From positions 1 to 64,000 of the IMG/VR virus record IMGVR_UViG_3300046373_000069: DNA of 64,000 bases. One strand, written 5' to 3'. The notes beneath the pieces are model-generated. The model was not told the DNA's origin and ran no database searches. It saw only the letters and a list, made by a program, of their open reading frames with translations. Source of the DNA: a virus. This document shows positions 15,368 to 48,846 of this stretch, piece after piece. Positions within the stretch are counted from its first letter, which is position 1; every line of letters starts with the position of its first letter. A program made the position numbers and the translations under genes.

Positions 15368-15384
15368 TGCCTCACAGTGAGGCA
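15368..15384. repeat. Perfect palindrome of the TGAGGC family
   Basis: TGCCTCACAGTGAGGCA: two 8-bp arms around one central base. It is an outlying copy of the repeats at 15619-15728. Confidence 0.8.
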
Positions 15385-15618
15385 TTTACCTGTATCTTGA
15401 TGTCGTTGCACTGTACCCACAAAATAGTCTTACATGCTTACGCATGCGCTAACAACCTTACACACATACACAAGAATGCCTTTATCTATTCGTTCCACTG
15501 CGCAGGCGAAGCCGTAGCAGAGGGACAGAAGGAGATGGCTGTTCTTAGACTTAGAGGAAGCTTTCTCTTCTTTATCTCTTTTCTTATCTATTACATCTAT
15601 CTCTTAGTACGGTAGCTC

Positions 15619-15728
15619 TGAGGCAATTAAATGCCTCTCTCTGAGGCATATCAACGTCACAGTGAGGCGTATCTACTTCAGGCTGAGGCTTTGACAGCTT
15701 ACACAATTGCCTCTCTCTGAGGCATATC
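15619..15728. repeat. Iteron-like array of TGAGGC repeats
   Basis: TGAGGC occurs at 15619, 15642, 15663, 15684 and 15718 (spacing 23, 21, 21, 34), with inverted TGCCTC at 15632 and 15708. A 21-bp segment is repeated exactly at 15632-15652 and 15708-15728. A pyrimidine-rich, AT-rich stretch (about 15560-15606) adjoins it. The helical phasing suggests cooperative protein binding: a replication origin or a multi-site operator, probably bound by the winged-helix protein at 15942. The whole 15324-15796 gap holds no credible gene. Confidence 0.75.
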
Positions 15729-15734
15729 TAACAC

Positions 15735-15763
15735 TTGACAGACAAGCGTGCTCATGCTATAAT
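15735..15763 (+). promoter_or_regulatory. Consensus sigma70 promoter
   Basis: TTGACA at 15735-15740, 17 bp, TATAAT at 15758-15763, with an extended TGC before the -10. It starts 7 bases after the last TGAGGC repeat, so a repeat-binding protein would control it. Confidence 0.9.
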
Positions 15764-15796: not shown

Positions 15797-15991
15797 ATGC
15801 GATTAGACCTTAACTTAGACATCATCCGATGGATCGATGCGAACAAAGGCGACAAGTCAAGACCAGCTTTTATTATATCAAAGCTAAGAGAACTAATGCA
15901 AGACACGAAGCCTAACGGCACAATCCATACGAAGGGACTACATGAAGAAAATATCTCCTATGGAGCTAACCACGCTCCTGAACAGAACTAA
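15797..15991 (+). CDS. Hypothetical protein, 64 aa
   Basis: AAAGGAAG site before ATG 15797. Helical N terminus with IIRWIDANKGDKSRPAFIISKLREL, resembling a small DNA-binding or dimerisation helix pair. Overlaps the start of the 15942 gene by 50 bases and shares its promoter. Confidence 0.6.
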   Translation: MRLDLNLDIIRWIDANKGDKSRPAFIISKLRELMQDTKPNGTIHTKGLHEENISYGANHAPEQN

Positions 15992-16526
15992 GGTTTCTGT
16001 TTCCAAATTGACAGTACACGAACACCGTCTATTGTCTTTCCTGCTGGCGAGAGTGAACAAAGACAGGTTAGCTACTCATGGCTACCTTGCTTGGCCCGGC
16101 ACTGATGAAATCATTGACTACACAGACATATCTAAATCCACTATCGAGCGACTGCGCAAAACGCTAGTTGCTGCTGGATGGGTGCAATACACGCCGGGCC
16201 ATGGTGCAGGTTCCAGCAATCATTACTACATCAACGGACAGCGTATCTATGATGCATATGTGGCATCTGGCAATAAACCACCAGAGGGGACCGTGTACGC
16301 CACAAATGTGCAGGAGAAGCCAAAGAAGCAACACGAGCGCAATAAGTCAGGACTTAAGCAGGGTAAGGTAACGCCCGTTGCGCAAGAAGTCCCCAAGGTG
16401 TCTGTCCAACCAGTGGATGGGGGCTACCCTCGCTGGCATAAGGGTGTATGGGTGACGAGCGCAGAACACGCCCGAAGGGTGGATATTGAAGCGCAACACA
16501 CTCAAGACGAGGATTGTCCCTTTTAG
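15942..16526 (+). CDS. Winged-helix DNA-binding protein, possible replication initiator or repressor, 194 aa
   Basis: Residues 20-90 fit a winged helix: helix 1 (VHEHRLLSFLLARV), TDEIIDYTDISKSTIERLRKTL as the helix-turn-helix, and GWVQYTPG..SNHYYI as the wing. Such domains occur in phage replication proteins and plasmid initiators as well as in regulators. Residues 100-194 are a basic, low-complexity tail ending in an acidic stretch (TQDEDCPF), reminiscent of single-strand-binding tails. Position immediately after an iteron-like array and its promoter suggests it binds that array. ATG 15942 is used; 15957 is an alternative. The role is inferred. Confidence 0.65.
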   Translation: MKKISPMELTTLLNRTKVSVSKLTVHEHRLLSFLLARVNKDRLATHGYLAWPGTDEIIDYTDISKSTIERLRKTLVAAGWVQYTPGHGAGSSNHYYINGQRIYDAYVASGNKPPEGTVYATNVQEKPKKQHERNKSGLKQGKVTPVAQEVPKVSVQPVDGGYPRWHKGVWVTSAEHARRVDIEAQHTQDEDCPF

Positions 16527-19430: not shown

Positions 19431-19466
19431 GAGGGATGCCCGTAAGGGGTTAGATAGCAGCACACA

Positions 19467-19490
19467 AAAGCCCGCTCTAGGCGGGCTTTT
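19467..19490 (+). terminator. Intrinsic terminator
   Basis: AAAAGCCCGC, loop TCTAG, GCGGGCTTTT: a near-perfect stem with T tract ending the rightward early region. Confidence 0.9.
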
Positions 19491-19491
19491 C

Positions 19492-20395
19492 TTCGTCACT
19501 ATGCGTACCCCTAGGCAGCAGCTACAAGGCCCGTAGAGAGCCTATACAGGGCTGCTAGAGGGCATGCTGTACATCGTGCTATGTGTGGCCCCCCCTTCGG
19601 GGTGAGGGTGGCTGTGCAGCTACATGTAGGCAATGTGTTCTACCATGTGCTATGGGGCAGCTACTACCCACTATATGTAGTGTTACTATGTGGCACGCCT
19701 ACTAGATGTAGGGCAATGTTAGTGAGTACTAACGTTAGCGGTTACTAACATAGGGTTAAGCAAACAATCACGCCTTCTTCTTCGCATACGAAGTAGTTTC
19801 CTTTACAACAACACCCCTCCCAGACACCTCGAAATGTTGCTAACAAGCATTGCGTTGCAGCAGGGCAACATCTAGTTGCTACGAAGCAACATCAGAGGGC
19901 ACATTTTCGCCTTGACTTCCTAGTGCGTGCTGGGCGGTGGGTGATAGGGTGCCCGATGGGGCGTAGCTGGCATGGATGGACAGGGAGATGGAGACGCTTA
20001 ATCCTTTAGAATCAATGACATGCACCTACTCAGGCAGGCTCGACATTCACGCATCGCATACCTGAAAATGGACCCTTAGGGAACCAAAAGGGGATGGATT
20101 AGAGGCTCCAGAAGGCGTCGAAAGGGCGTGCTGGTAGGTGCACAAGGGACGCCCTCTGATCGTCGCTCCTACGTCATATTTGACCCGCTCTAGTGCTATG
20201 GGCGACCCCGTATGGGCCATGTTTAACCACGTTTGTAAGCCTGTAACATTCTCAAAAGTGCCTATTTGACCCATCTTTTCGTCCACTTTTAGCCTTGTTT
20301 GAGATACTTTTTCATATGATTTCGCACAGCAAAACTACGAAGTGGGCTATCCAAAAATAATTTTTAGAAAATTTCAAGTTTCCTGAAAAGGGCCA
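19492..20395. other. Structured non-coding region of about 0.9 kb
   Basis: No convincing gene. It holds a cluster of GTTAGT/ACTAAC half sites (19718-19749), a hairpin GTTGCT-ACGA-AGCAAC (19875-19890), an ATGTTGC/GCAACAT pair (19834 and 19865), an inverted pair TGCACCTAC (20021) and GTAGGTGCA (20132), and a direct repeat TATTTGACCC at 20177 and 20263. Lying between a terminator and a recombinase gene, it could hold an origin, a recombination (res/att) site or a regulatory centre. Confidence 0.55.
19718..19749. repeat. Clustered GTTAGT/ACTAAC half sites
   Basis: GTTAGT (19718), ACTAAC (19728), GTTAGC (19734) and ACTAAC (19744) form two adjacent inverted pairs in 32 bp, the layout of a dimer-binding operator or recombinase core. 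Confidence 0.6.
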
Positions 20396-20424
20396 TTGAC
20401 AGATGCGTTTATAGCCGCTACAAT
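20396..20424 (+). promoter_or_regulatory. Promoter of the serine recombinase
   Basis: TTGACA at 20396-20401 and TACAAT at 20419-20424, 17-bp spacer. Confidence 0.8.
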
Positions 20425-20469
20425 GACTGCATCAACTAGCAACTTTGCACACACAAACAGGAGCTTGAA

Positions 20470-21114
20470 ATGACTACTACATATTTTTATACGAGGGTGT
20501 CCCTTGAAGAGCAGACGACAGAGAACCAGAAGCTTGCTGCTAAGGCCGCTGGCCTGACGATTGACGAGTGCTTCACTGACCACGGTGTGTCAGGTGGAGT
20601 GAAGGCTATGGAGCGTCCTGAGTTCGCCCGCATGGCTGCTCTTGTGAAAGCCGGTGACATCCTCGCAGTGAATAGCGTTGATCGCATCGGACGAGACACT
20701 GTGGACGTTCTCTCTACTGTGGAAATGTTCCAAGCTAAGGGTGTCAAGGTGTGTGTTCTCGCCTATGGCAATCTTGATCTTACTAGCGATATGGGTAAGA
20801 TGATATTGACAATCGCAGCAGGCTTCGCAGCCCTAGAGAGGTCGAATCTCCGCACTCGCACAAAGCAAGGCATGGCGCGTACTAAAGCGCAAGGCACGAA
20901 GCTTGGCAGGCCACTCAAGATTACTCCAGACACGCTAGCAGATATTTTGAAGGACAGGGATGCAGGTGTACCGCTGGAAGGGTTGTCTCAAAAATATAAA
21001 ATCCCCCGCAATACCATCCACAAAAATGTTGCTAAGTGGGCTGGTAAAGTGGAGGACTATCGTGTAGAGTACAAAGCTCGTGAAGTGCAGTATGCAGCGT
21101 CTAAACTCAACTAA
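20470..21114 (+). CDS. Small serine recombinase (resolvase/invertase family), 214 aa
   Basis: Cuts and rejoins DNA through a covalent serine link. Catalytic S11 lies in FYTRVSLEEQT; other family motifs are DHGVSGG, VNSVDRIGRD (Arg cluster) and a long E helix ending ERSNLRTRTKQGMARTKAQG. A C-terminal helix-turn-helix follows (residues 150-180, LSQKYKIPRNTIHKNVAKW). Length is typical of small resolvases and invertases, not of large phage integrases. No invertible tail-fibre cassette is visible; multimer resolution or a role at the upstream structured region are alternatives. AGGAGC site. Confidence 0.85.
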   Translation: MTTTYFYTRVSLEEQTTENQKLAAKAAGLTIDECFTDHGVSGGVKAMERPEFARMAALVKAGDILAVNSVDRIGRDTVDVLSTVEMFQAKGVKVCVLAYGNLDLTSDMGKMILTIAAGFAALERSNLRTRTKQGMARTKAQGTKLGRPLKITPDTLADILKDRDAGVPLEGLSQKYKIPRNTIHKNVAKWAGKVEDYRVEYKAREVQYAASKLN

Positions 21115-23850: not shown

Positions 23851-24582
23851 TTACTTTGTTGTGTCTACTGTTTTCTTTACGCGCTTGGCCCTAGCAGGCT
23901 TCTTATCTTCCTTAACAGCTTCCTGCTCAGCCGCTTCTCGTGCAGCAATCTCTGCTTCAATGGCTGCAATGATGGCTTCCTCATCGTCCTCTTGCTGGCC
24001 TTCGCGATCTGCTGCGAGCAACTCAGAGCGCTTCTCATAACGCTCTACAAACTCATCCTTCGACATGTAGAAGTCAGTGCCAGTAAGCATGCGTTCGATT
24101 TCCTCGGTGCTGAAGAAGTGCTTATACATATCACGCAGAAGACGCTTGCTAGACTTTAGAGTATGCTCCACATGCTTCTCCACGTTCCAGCCGCTACCTC
24201 CACTGCCGAACGAGACATTGTGGCACATGATGGTGCTGTACTCGTTCATAGAGATGCTGTCCGCACGCATCAACAGGAACGTGCCAGCAGAGGCCACGTC
24301 AGAACAAGCGTTGACGTGCACGTGCGCGTGAGTGTCCTGCATAGCACCAAGCAGAGGCAGTACTGCGTGTAGTGCACCACCACATGTAGTCAGGTTCAAT
24401 TGGAAGCTGTCATACTCTGTGGCATGCTCCATAGCGTTGACGATGTAGGCAAACTGGCGAGGGTGTACGAACGTCTCGTCAATGTCTACGCGGTATTCGA
24501 TACCAGCAGGCTTTGCGGTTAGCATAAAAGGCTCGATGCTGCTTGCACAGTCGTCGTAGGAGTTAGTTGGTTTGGTGTTCAT
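23851..24582 (-). CDS. ClpP-like serine protease, 243 aa
   Basis: Residues 55-175 follow the ClpP fold: LNLTTCGGALHAVL (oxyanion Gly pair), ACSDVASAGTFLL with catalytic S98, STIMCHNVSFGSGG with H121, and TGTDFYMSKDE where the ClpP Asp lies. Residues 190-243 are a highly charged Lys/Glu/Ala tail ending in basic residues. This is distinct from the capsid protease at 32636. Such ClpP-like proteins occur in several phages and could be a second virion maturation or a regulatory protease. The end of the HNH gene overlaps its start by 20 bp. Confidence 0.75.
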   Translation of the reverse strand: MNTKPTNSYDDCASSIEPFMLTAKPAGIEYRVDIDETFVHPRQFAYIVNAMEHATEYDSFQLNLTTCGGALHAVLPLLGAMQDTHAHVHVNACSDVASAGTFLLMRADSISMNEYSTIMCHNVSFGSGGSGWNVEKHVEHTLKSSKRLLRDMYKHFFSTEEIERMLTGTDFYMSKDEFVERYEKRSELLAADREGQQEDDEEAIIAAIEAEIAAREAAEQEAVKEDKKPARAKRVKKTVDTTK

Positions 24583-25351
24583 TGGAAGCCTTTACTTTAC
24601 GTGGGTGTCCGTGCTCAGGTTTGTAGCCTGCACCAGCGGCATTCATTTCGTTAATCATCTGTTGTCGATACTCAACAGCCATACGCTTGGCTTCTTCTGT
24701 TCCGTACTTTAAAGCCGAGAAAGACTTCTCACGACGTTTTCCTGTTTTACTGTCCGCCCAATAGGCTGCGAAGCTAACAAGCCCGTTGCGGTGTTTCTTG
24801 GAAACGCCTGTTACACCTGATGTGTTGTTCTCCTGCATGCCACGATTTCGTGCCTGTTCAGTCCAAACTTCCCACTTACAGTTGATGGGAGAATAGTCCT
24901 CGTCGTTATTTTGTCGTCCCACAGTCCAGAGATGGTTGCCTTCCGGTGCTCTGCCCATGTCGCCCAAGAACGTTTCGTAACTGTCGCGCCACTCATCACA
25001 GACTTCAATGCCCCTCTCTCCGTAGTATGAGTAAGTCTCTTTAGAGTCGTTGTAGCAGCGCGCCTTCATGGCTTTCCAAGCTTGGTGCTCCTTGCTACCG
25101 CTGTCCCCATGAGTCGTGTTACGATCAACGCAAACCTTGACAGCAGACTCTTTCTGAGCACAACCGCAAGACTGGACACTACCACTAACAAGCCCTGCGA
25201 GGCGTGCCGAGTACACGGTGCCACAAGAGCATCGTACCGTCGCTACACGCACGTTCACCCCATTAACACTCAGACTAGGCAGTTCCTCAACTACCGTCAG
25301 CCGCCCGAATACCTTTCCTGTGTGATCTTCTCGTTTATAGATTCGAGGCAT
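24563..25351 (-). CDS. HNH homing endonuclease with AP2 domain, 262 aa
   Basis: Free-standing homing endonuclease. Order: N-terminal zinc-ribbon-like segment (VRCSCGT...QSCGCAQKE, about 39-70), HNH core (YYGERGIEVCDEWRDSYETF, RQNNDEDYSPINCKW, about 105-165), then AP2-like DNA-binding domain (NNTSGVTGVSKKHRNG to about 225). The C-terminal tail is basic. Same architecture as the 27852 gene. Inserted between phoH and the ClpP-like gene, overlapping the latter's start by 20 bp. Confidence 0.9.
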   Translation of the reverse strand: MPRIYKREDHTGKVFGRLTVVEELPSLSVNGVNVRVATVRCSCGTVYSARLAGLVSGSVQSCGCAQKESAVKVCVDRNTTHGDSGSKEHQAWKAMKARCYNDSKETYSYYGERGIEVCDEWRDSYETFLGDMGRAPEGNHLWTVGRQNNDEDYSPINCKWEVWTEQARNRGMQENNTSGVTGVSKKHRNGLVSFAAYWADSKTGKRREKSFSALKYGTEEAKRMAVEYRQQMINEMNAAGAGYKPEHGHPRKVKASNEHQTN

Positions 25352-27340: not shown

Positions 27341-27415
27341 GCTGATATAGCCGAACGGTAAGGCAACGCCCTTGTAAGGCGGAGATTCTGGGTTCAACTC
27401 CTAGTATCAGCACCA
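27341..27415 (+). tRNA. tRNA-Thr (anticodon UGU)
   Basis: Acceptor GCTGATA pairs with TATCAGC, D arm GCC/GGC, anticodon loop CTTGTAA giving UGU, T arm CTGGG-TTCAACT-CCTAG, discriminator A and encoded CCA. Folds cleanly apart from one A-G at the top of the anticodon stem. Confidence 0.92.
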
Positions 27416-47816: not shown

Positions 47817-47892
47817 GAGTTAGCTAGTTTTGCACGCGGGCGTTGCTGGCATTTTCACCAGCCGCCCATCCGTGCCTTTAATAGGGTGCGAG

Positions 47893-48846
47893 ATGCCGAA
47901 GCAAAAAACTCAAGAAGAATGGTTAAATAGCATACCCAAAGAACACAAGGATAAGTTTGATTACAGCAAGGCTGTCTATACTAAGTCTCAAAACAAAGTT
48001 CTACTAACGTGTAAGAAATGCAGTACAGAATTTATGCAGCGGGCTGATATGAACACAAGAGGCGTTGGCTGTAAGGTCTGTCAACATAGGGCGCTACACG
48101 CCAGTCTTGTCCATACAAAGGAGATGTTCATTGAACGTAGCCAAGAAGAGTTTGGCGATAAGTACGGTTACGAGCTTGTTAAGTATGTGGATAAATACAC
48201 GAAAGTCGATATCATCTGTAGGAAGGAAGGGCACGGTATTTTCCAAGTCACGCCTGCCAATCTGAAGAAGGGACGACACTCGTGCCCCAAGTGTGCTGGG
48301 GAAGCAATTTCAAAAGCCCACCGTAAAACGCAAGAAGATTTCGTTGAAGAGTGTCGAGCACTGTGCGCAGAAGGCATCACGTTTGAGCACGTAAAGTACT
48401 CAGGAGATAAAACTAATGTGATGTTCAACTGCGCCACACACGGCATTTTTGATATGCTACCCGGTAACTTCCTTAAGGGGTGCCGCTGCCCATCATGTGC
48501 AAGCTACGGGTACAGAAAGGCGCTCCCCGGTAGATTCTACATTTTATCGGATGGCTACACCACAAAGGTCGGTGTCACCAATAAGGAACCTGAATATAGG
48601 GCTAAATCGGTGGCTAAGACGGGTGGTCCAATTATGGACATCATGGTGAACATGTTCTTTGCAGATGGCGCAATGCCCTTGAAGATTGAAACTGCTTGCC
48701 TTCGCTACTTAAAGACAAAATACAAATCCCCAAGTAGCACATTCGACGGTGCTACTGAGTGCTTCCTAGGTGTGGATATCCCAGACCTTCTAAATTTTAT
48801 CTCACCAATCGCATCAACCGCAGAGCTGGAACAATCCGGCCTTTAA
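47893..48846 (+). CDS. Homing endonuclease with zinc-ribbon repeats and GIY-YIG-like domain, 317 aa
   Basis: ATG 47893 is preferred over the TTG at 47830, though neither has a strong site. Residues 30-210 carry repeated treble-clef/zinc-ribbon units (LLTCKKCSTEFMQRADMNTR, IICRKEGHGIF..HSCPKCAG, MFNCATHGIFDM..CRCPSCAS) that bind DNA. Residues 215-310 form the nuclease-like domain (GRFYILSDGYTTKVGVTNKE, ETACLRYLKTKYKSP). Inserted between tail tube and tail chaperone genes. A truncated relative sits at 38154. Confidence 0.85.
   Translation: MPKQKTQEEWLNSIPKEHKDKFDYSKAVYTKSQNKVLLTCKKCSTEFMQRADMNTRGVGCKVCQHRALHASLVHTKEMFIERSQEEFGDKYGYELVKYVDKYTKVDIICRKEGHGIFQVTPANLKKGRHSCPKCAGEAISKAHRKTQEDFVEECRALCAEGITFEHVKYSGDKTNVMFNCATHGIFDMLPGNFLKGCRCPSCASYGYRKALPGRFYILSDGYTTKVGVTNKEPEYRAKSVAKTGGPIMDIMVNMFFADGAMPLKIETACLRYLKTKYKSPSSTFDGATECFLGVDIPDLLNFISPIASTAELEQSGL

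Follow-up and report, generated by a model that had tools for sequence, protein, structure and literature searches.

A likely lambda-O-like replication origin and initiator operon in an environmental phage of about 94 kb

An array of phased TGAGGC repeats, an adjoining pyrimidine-rich AT tract and an operon whose second gene encodes an O-like winged-helix protein were characterized in the genome of an environmental phage (locus label G000). We consider it rather likely that the locus comprises a replication origin of lambda-O type together with the operon of its initiator; the array probably also acts as an operator. Across relatives, the iteron sequence and the initiator have diverged together and the layout has been kept. 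To our knowledge most large lytic-type phages have no mapped origin, and the locus gives a precise origin prediction for a group of roughly 90-kb phages.

The phage record

The window analysed, to which all positions without a prefix refer, covers the first 64 kb of the record of 93,609 bp (~94 kb). The termini at both ends of the record are identical over 128 bp, so the record is probably a complete, circularly closed assembly. Family matches place a DNA polymerase, a T7-type primase-helicase, an exonuclease, an SSB-like protein and a ligase in the gene set of the phage. A tail-fibre match of the lambda-J-like type would fit a siphovirus. Near the terminase gene, the window contains a tRNA-Thr (TGT) gene (27341-27415). 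An HNH endonuclease gene with an AP2 domain (24563-25351, minus strand), probably a homing endonuclease, is located between PhoH-like and Clp-protease-like genes. Two separate phrog_681 endonuclease genes (47830-48846 and L003:9124-10320) suggest mobile endonucleases.

A phased repeat array between an AT tract and a promoter

On the plus strand TGAGGC is found at 15378, 15619, 15642, 15663, 15684 and 15718, in agreement with the original prediction of at least six copies, three of them paired with an inverted TGCCTC. Each pair forms a perfect 17-bp palindrome (15368, 15632 and 15708), and the motif TGCCTC-N5-GAGGCA has exactly these three occurrences in the 93.6-kb record. The first is an outer full site, the perfect palindrome TGCCTCACAGTGAGGCA (15368-15384), 241 bp upstream of the core array. 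The core is composed of iteron 1 (15619-15624, plus strand), a TGAGGC half-site; iteron 2 (15632-15648), a full site TGCCTCTCTCTGAGGCA; iterons 3 (15653-15669) and 4 (15674-15690), degenerate sites with TGAGGC half-sites at 15663 and 15684, respectively; and iteron 5 (15708-15724), again a full site TGCCTCTCTCTGAGGCA, which adjoins the promoter. The spacings of TGAGGC in the core are 23, 21 and 21 bp, as anticipated (21-23 bp), then 34 bp. The exact 21-bp repeat TGCCTCTCTCTGAGGCATATC reported at 15632 and 15708 is correct.

The signal resides in the clustering of TGAGGC, since the hexamer itself is not over-represented in the window (28 copies seen, 39 expected). Five copies lie within 105 bp, and at most three were found in such a span in all 300 first-order-Markov genomes. 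When any 6-mer was allowed, the best count across 40 randomised genomes was four, against the five observed. On sequence grounds, the array is a real and functional-looking site.

Upstream of the core, a pyrimidine-rich AT tract (15561-15607), which aligns with the relatives, is proposed as a DNA-unwinding element. Positions 15566-15605 are 85% pyrimidine and 75% AT and take rank 1 on a strand-bias-plus-AT score among all 40-bp windows of the 93.6-kb record; no stretch of this type in the record is stronger than the one previously noticed beside the array. The conserved block TTAGTACGGTA (15604-15614, plus strand), which immediately precedes iteron 1, has an identical copy in the related locus G022 and a nearly identical one in G021. 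On the other side of the array, a sigma-70 promoter (15735-15763, plus strand) displays TTGACA at 15735 and TATAAT at 15758, separated by 17 bp, with a TG before the -10 box. The match is 12/12, so the perfect promoter announced next to the array stands, and its distance to the repeat end at 15728 is 6 bases instead of 7 bp. In four other loci the promoter is found at the same place with an 11/12 match.

A probable O-like initiator with an SSB-like C-terminal tip

The second ORF of the operon (15942-16526, plus strand) overlaps the end of the first and encodes a protein of 194 aa. It had been recognized as a winged-helix protein, rightly, and the phage-family matches narrow it to an O-like initiator. 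Over the winged-helix region it matches phrog_270 (3.5e-9) and phrog_678 (3.5e-5), families annotated "replication initiation" and "O-like", and general helix-turn-helix models rank behind them. HTH_36 (Pfam) is matched by this protein and its homologues at five of five loci; in the phage library all five also match O-like or "replication initiation" PHROG families better than regulators. With tblastn, the homologue from G005 retrieved protein O of Citrobacter phage phiNP (2e-7) and of Shigella phage SfII (2e-6). The Pfam family Phage_rep_O (PF04492) is matched by none of the five, compared with 5.7e-36 for lambda O itself, and the Pfam RepA_N profile likewise gave no match for any of them. 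A Foldseek search with the low-confidence model of the 194-aa protein returned weak matches to RepA_N plasmid initiators (4pql, 4pt7, 5kbj) and to DnaD. From these family relationships, the gene product is probably an O-like replication initiator. Unlike in lambda O, no helicase-loader domain is recognisable in the protein, and the linker ahead of its C-terminal tip has low predicted order.

The codons of this tip, QDEDCPF, occupy positions 16503-16523 (plus strand). The C-terminal halves of the five initiators align poorly, and all five end in an acidic...PF motif (QDEDCPF, DSDEPPF, DSLECPF, SCDDPF and DDENCPF). Bacterial SSB recruits partner proteins through such a C-terminal tip. Among 3001 mechanical ORFs of at least 60 aa from ten genomes, such an end is present in ten, two of which are these initiators; most of the others look SSB-type, including the phage's own phrog_112-related protein, with only part of them identified by family search. 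By analogy, we infer that the initiator recruits replisome proteins via its tip. Tip mimicry is a simple hypothesis, by which a phage initiator could call the phage-encoded primase-helicase without a lambda-P-type loader. More tentatively, these proteins might form a class of phage initiators of their own, with an O-type domain for iteron binding joined to an SSB-tip mimic by a flexible linker; the origin complex would then pose as SSB-coated DNA to recruit the phage replisome with no dedicated helicase loader. In the open-access papers searched, no phage initiator with an SSB-tip mimic was found, which does not prove absence.

The first ORF of the operon (15797-15991, plus strand) encodes 64 aa, and its conservation at all five loci is as an ORF of 60-63 aa. 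A strand-helix-helix sequence pattern at the N-terminus suggests that the protein may be of the ribbon-helix-helix type, and thus a possible CopG-like repressor. Its low-confidence structure model contains two helices, and no RHH/CopG/Arc profile, Pfam or PDB match was obtained. The Foldseek matches of this model were discarded as meaningless. This ORF, which like the SSB-like tip was left out of account in the original prediction, possibly encodes a DNA-binding protein and a rival binder of the array.

Conservation of the module among related phages

Protein searches detected no initiator homologue in the terminase relatives (68-89% identical), and searches with the single initiator sequence gave no matches in phages or viral contigs and weak partial matches in plasmids. 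The homologues were recovered stepwise: a family search led to G005, a profile applied among polymerase relatives to G022 and G021, and a further search to L139 (G053). Of the roughly 50 related records that were searched, many being fragments, only 5 contain the module, which is therefore not a universal origin of the group. A single degenerate pattern recovered no module from bacterial genomes.

The order AT/pyrimidine tract, iterons, promoter with a 17-bp spacer, ~60-aa ORF and overlapping O-like ORF is shared by G000, G022, L139 and G021. The same order is observed in G005 with a weaker and different repeat set, and the AT tract is present at all five loci. The core spacings are 23, 23 and 44 in G022, 23, 23 and 43 in L139, and 23, 19 and 24 in G021, where the last iteron adjoins or overlaps the -35 box. 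Between G000 and G022 or L139, much of the flanking sequence aligns and the repeat core is altered in every copy (TGAGGC to GCGGGG). This change includes the outer palindrome, which lies 241-291 bp upstream of the core and has altered-motif counterparts at L135:953-975 and L139:2437-2459. Such a change of all copies would be expected if the sites are bound by a protein that is itself changing. Both operon proteins have diverged between G000 and G022 (48% and 42% identical), so that, judged from the five members, the repeat may track either of the two. In a distant relative (G025), a 140-aa O-like ORF (L137:1060-1593) is preceded by repeated ACAAAATGTCC and may be a further initiator that has iterons of its own.

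The genome contains no cluster of DnaA boxes. In relatives, clustered perfect DnaA boxes (TTATCCACA) were detected at L062:17263-17449 (G005), G012:76307-76368, G011:12091-12151, G015:24347-24388, G016:46941-46981 and G053:74032-74052; these arrays may be host-DnaA-dependent origins or DnaA sinks. G005 carries six boxes with an exact spacing of 12 bp. The boxes of both G005 and G012 precede, by ~0.8-0.9 kb, a serine recombinase gene that is a homologue of 20470-21114 of the window. The corresponding place upstream of the recombinase gene in the window (19440-20460) is ~1 kb without a convincing gene and has no such boxes. The O-like module and arrays of DnaA boxes do not strictly exclude each other, as G005 and G053 carry both.

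Origin or operator

The original prediction left the choice between an iteron-type origin and an autoregulated operator. The O-like family matches, the AT tract, the conserved layout and the concerted change of the sites favour an origin, and the sites next to the promoter probably double as an operator. GC skew, proposed as a check, follows gene direction and carries no origin signal. For this locus we infer binding, melting, recruitment, repression and looping as follows. Dimers of the O-like protein (15942-16526) would bind the phased TGCCTC-N5-GAGGCA sites, and the bound initiator would build an O-some-like complex and melt the adjoining pyrimidine-rich AT tract. The linker would lead to the acidic ...DEDCPF tip, which probably recruits the primase-helicase and the DNA polymerase that normally dock on the phage SSB. 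Through the sites adjacent to the promoter the initiator, alone or together with the 64-aa protein, would repress the operon that encodes it, and the outer palindrome could join the complex by looping.

Alternatively, the array could chiefly be the operator of a 64-aa CopG-type ribbon-helix-helix repressor of the initiator operon, the initiator itself acting elsewhere. This would fit the place of the 64-aa ORF at the head of the operon, its conservation at five of five loci, its N-terminal pattern and the way the array abuts the -35 box, with the last iteron of G021 even adjoining or overlapping it; an operon of repressor and replication protein has a precedent in pRN1 (PMC4234260). We nevertheless regard this explanation as unlikely: the ribbon-helix-helix assignment has no library match, the site geometry is that of lambda O sites, and an operator alone leaves three features unexplained, namely the conservation of the AT tract, the position of iteron 1 beside it and the outer palindrome far from the core. 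As the binder we favour the winged-helix protein, in view of the lambda precedent, the AT tract and the remote outer site, and joint use of the array by both proteins is possible.

It is quite improbable that the array serves purely for autoregulation of the winged-helix protein, which would then be a regulator or be active at another origin, with replication starting elsewhere. The domain type does also match MarR, IclR and GntR regulators, the array adjoins the promoter, and the absence of the module from most related phages implies that the group can replicate without it. Against this stand the better matches of all five homologues to replication-initiation families than to regulators in the phage library, the conservation of the AT tract and the SSB-like tip, for which a repressor offers no obvious role. 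That the palindromes are RNA hairpins or terminators instead of protein-binding DNA sites is hardly credible, even though the outer palindrome comes after the end of a gene, its counterpart in G022 has a terminator-like score and the folding of the core is somewhat better than that of shuffled sequences (z -2.3): no terminator-like sites were detected in the window stretch, the core lies upstream of the promoter and so outside the transcript of this operon, and three of the five core units are non-palindromic, yet phased.

Comparison with known replication systems

In lambda, O binds iterons and an AT tract is needed for unwinding (PMC7466680). The lambda iterons (L072, NC_001416), TCCCTCAAAACGAGGGA and variants, have spacings of 20, 24 and 23 and are followed by a purine-rich AT tract. 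The full sites GCCTC-N5-GAGGC (G000) and CCCGC-N5-GCGGG (G022, L139) differ from the lambda site CCCTC-N5-GAGGG by one base per arm; those of G000, G022 and L139 have the 5-N5-5 geometry and no other spacing, and G021 has no 5-N5-5 palindrome. Lambda was chosen for comparison owing to the O-like matches and the half-site pattern was drawn up once the sites had been seen, so the likeness is in part post hoc. Scored with a lambda iteron matrix, the sites do not stand out in the genome (15368 ranks 8th, 15632 and 15708 rank 41-42), and only the geometry and the near-identity of the arms are therefore claimed.

The locus resembles oriLambda in its phased imperfect palindromes, four or more with a period of 20-24 bp, its strand-biased AT-rich tract and its winged-helix initiator related to O-like families. 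In lambda the iterons are inside the O gene, whereas the array here (15619-15724) is upstream of the initiator gene (15942-16526), and the AT tract is on the other side of the array, in mirrored order. Compared with lambda O, the protein is shorter, carries the SSB-like tip and has no Pfam lambda-O match. No lambda-P-type helicase loader was detected among the proteins scanned, which include the small genes only in part, and the phage has its own T7-type primase-helicase. The Pfam family and the gene arrangement keep the locus from being filed as lambda-type, and it is treated as a variant on account of the SSB-like tip and the array upstream of the operon.

The RepA of the PLE satellite relies on the replisome of its helper phage (PMC7145576). 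The present initiator resembles RepA_N plasmid initiators and PLE RepA by a winged-helix N-terminal domain of similar fold, according to weak Foldseek matches, and by semi-palindromic iterons (PMC7145576). It is distinguished from them by two features not described for RepA_N or PLE RepA, a short gene of ~60 aa upstream and the SSB-like tip, and the fold comparison comes from a low-confidence model with no Pfam RepA_N match. In pMV158, copG-repB places a small repressor gene ahead of the replication gene in one operon. The present operon shares with it, and with pRN1 orf56/orf904 (PMC4234260), a small putative repressor gene in first position and repeats beside the promoter; the replication proteins of pMV158 and pRN1 are unrelated to O, and the present locus is lambda-like in its iteron array and AT tract. 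Finally, in Gordonia phage initiators the winged-helix domain varies independently of the C-terminal region (PMC10684548). The initiators described here display the same independence, and differ in that their common C-terminal element is a short SSB-like tip.
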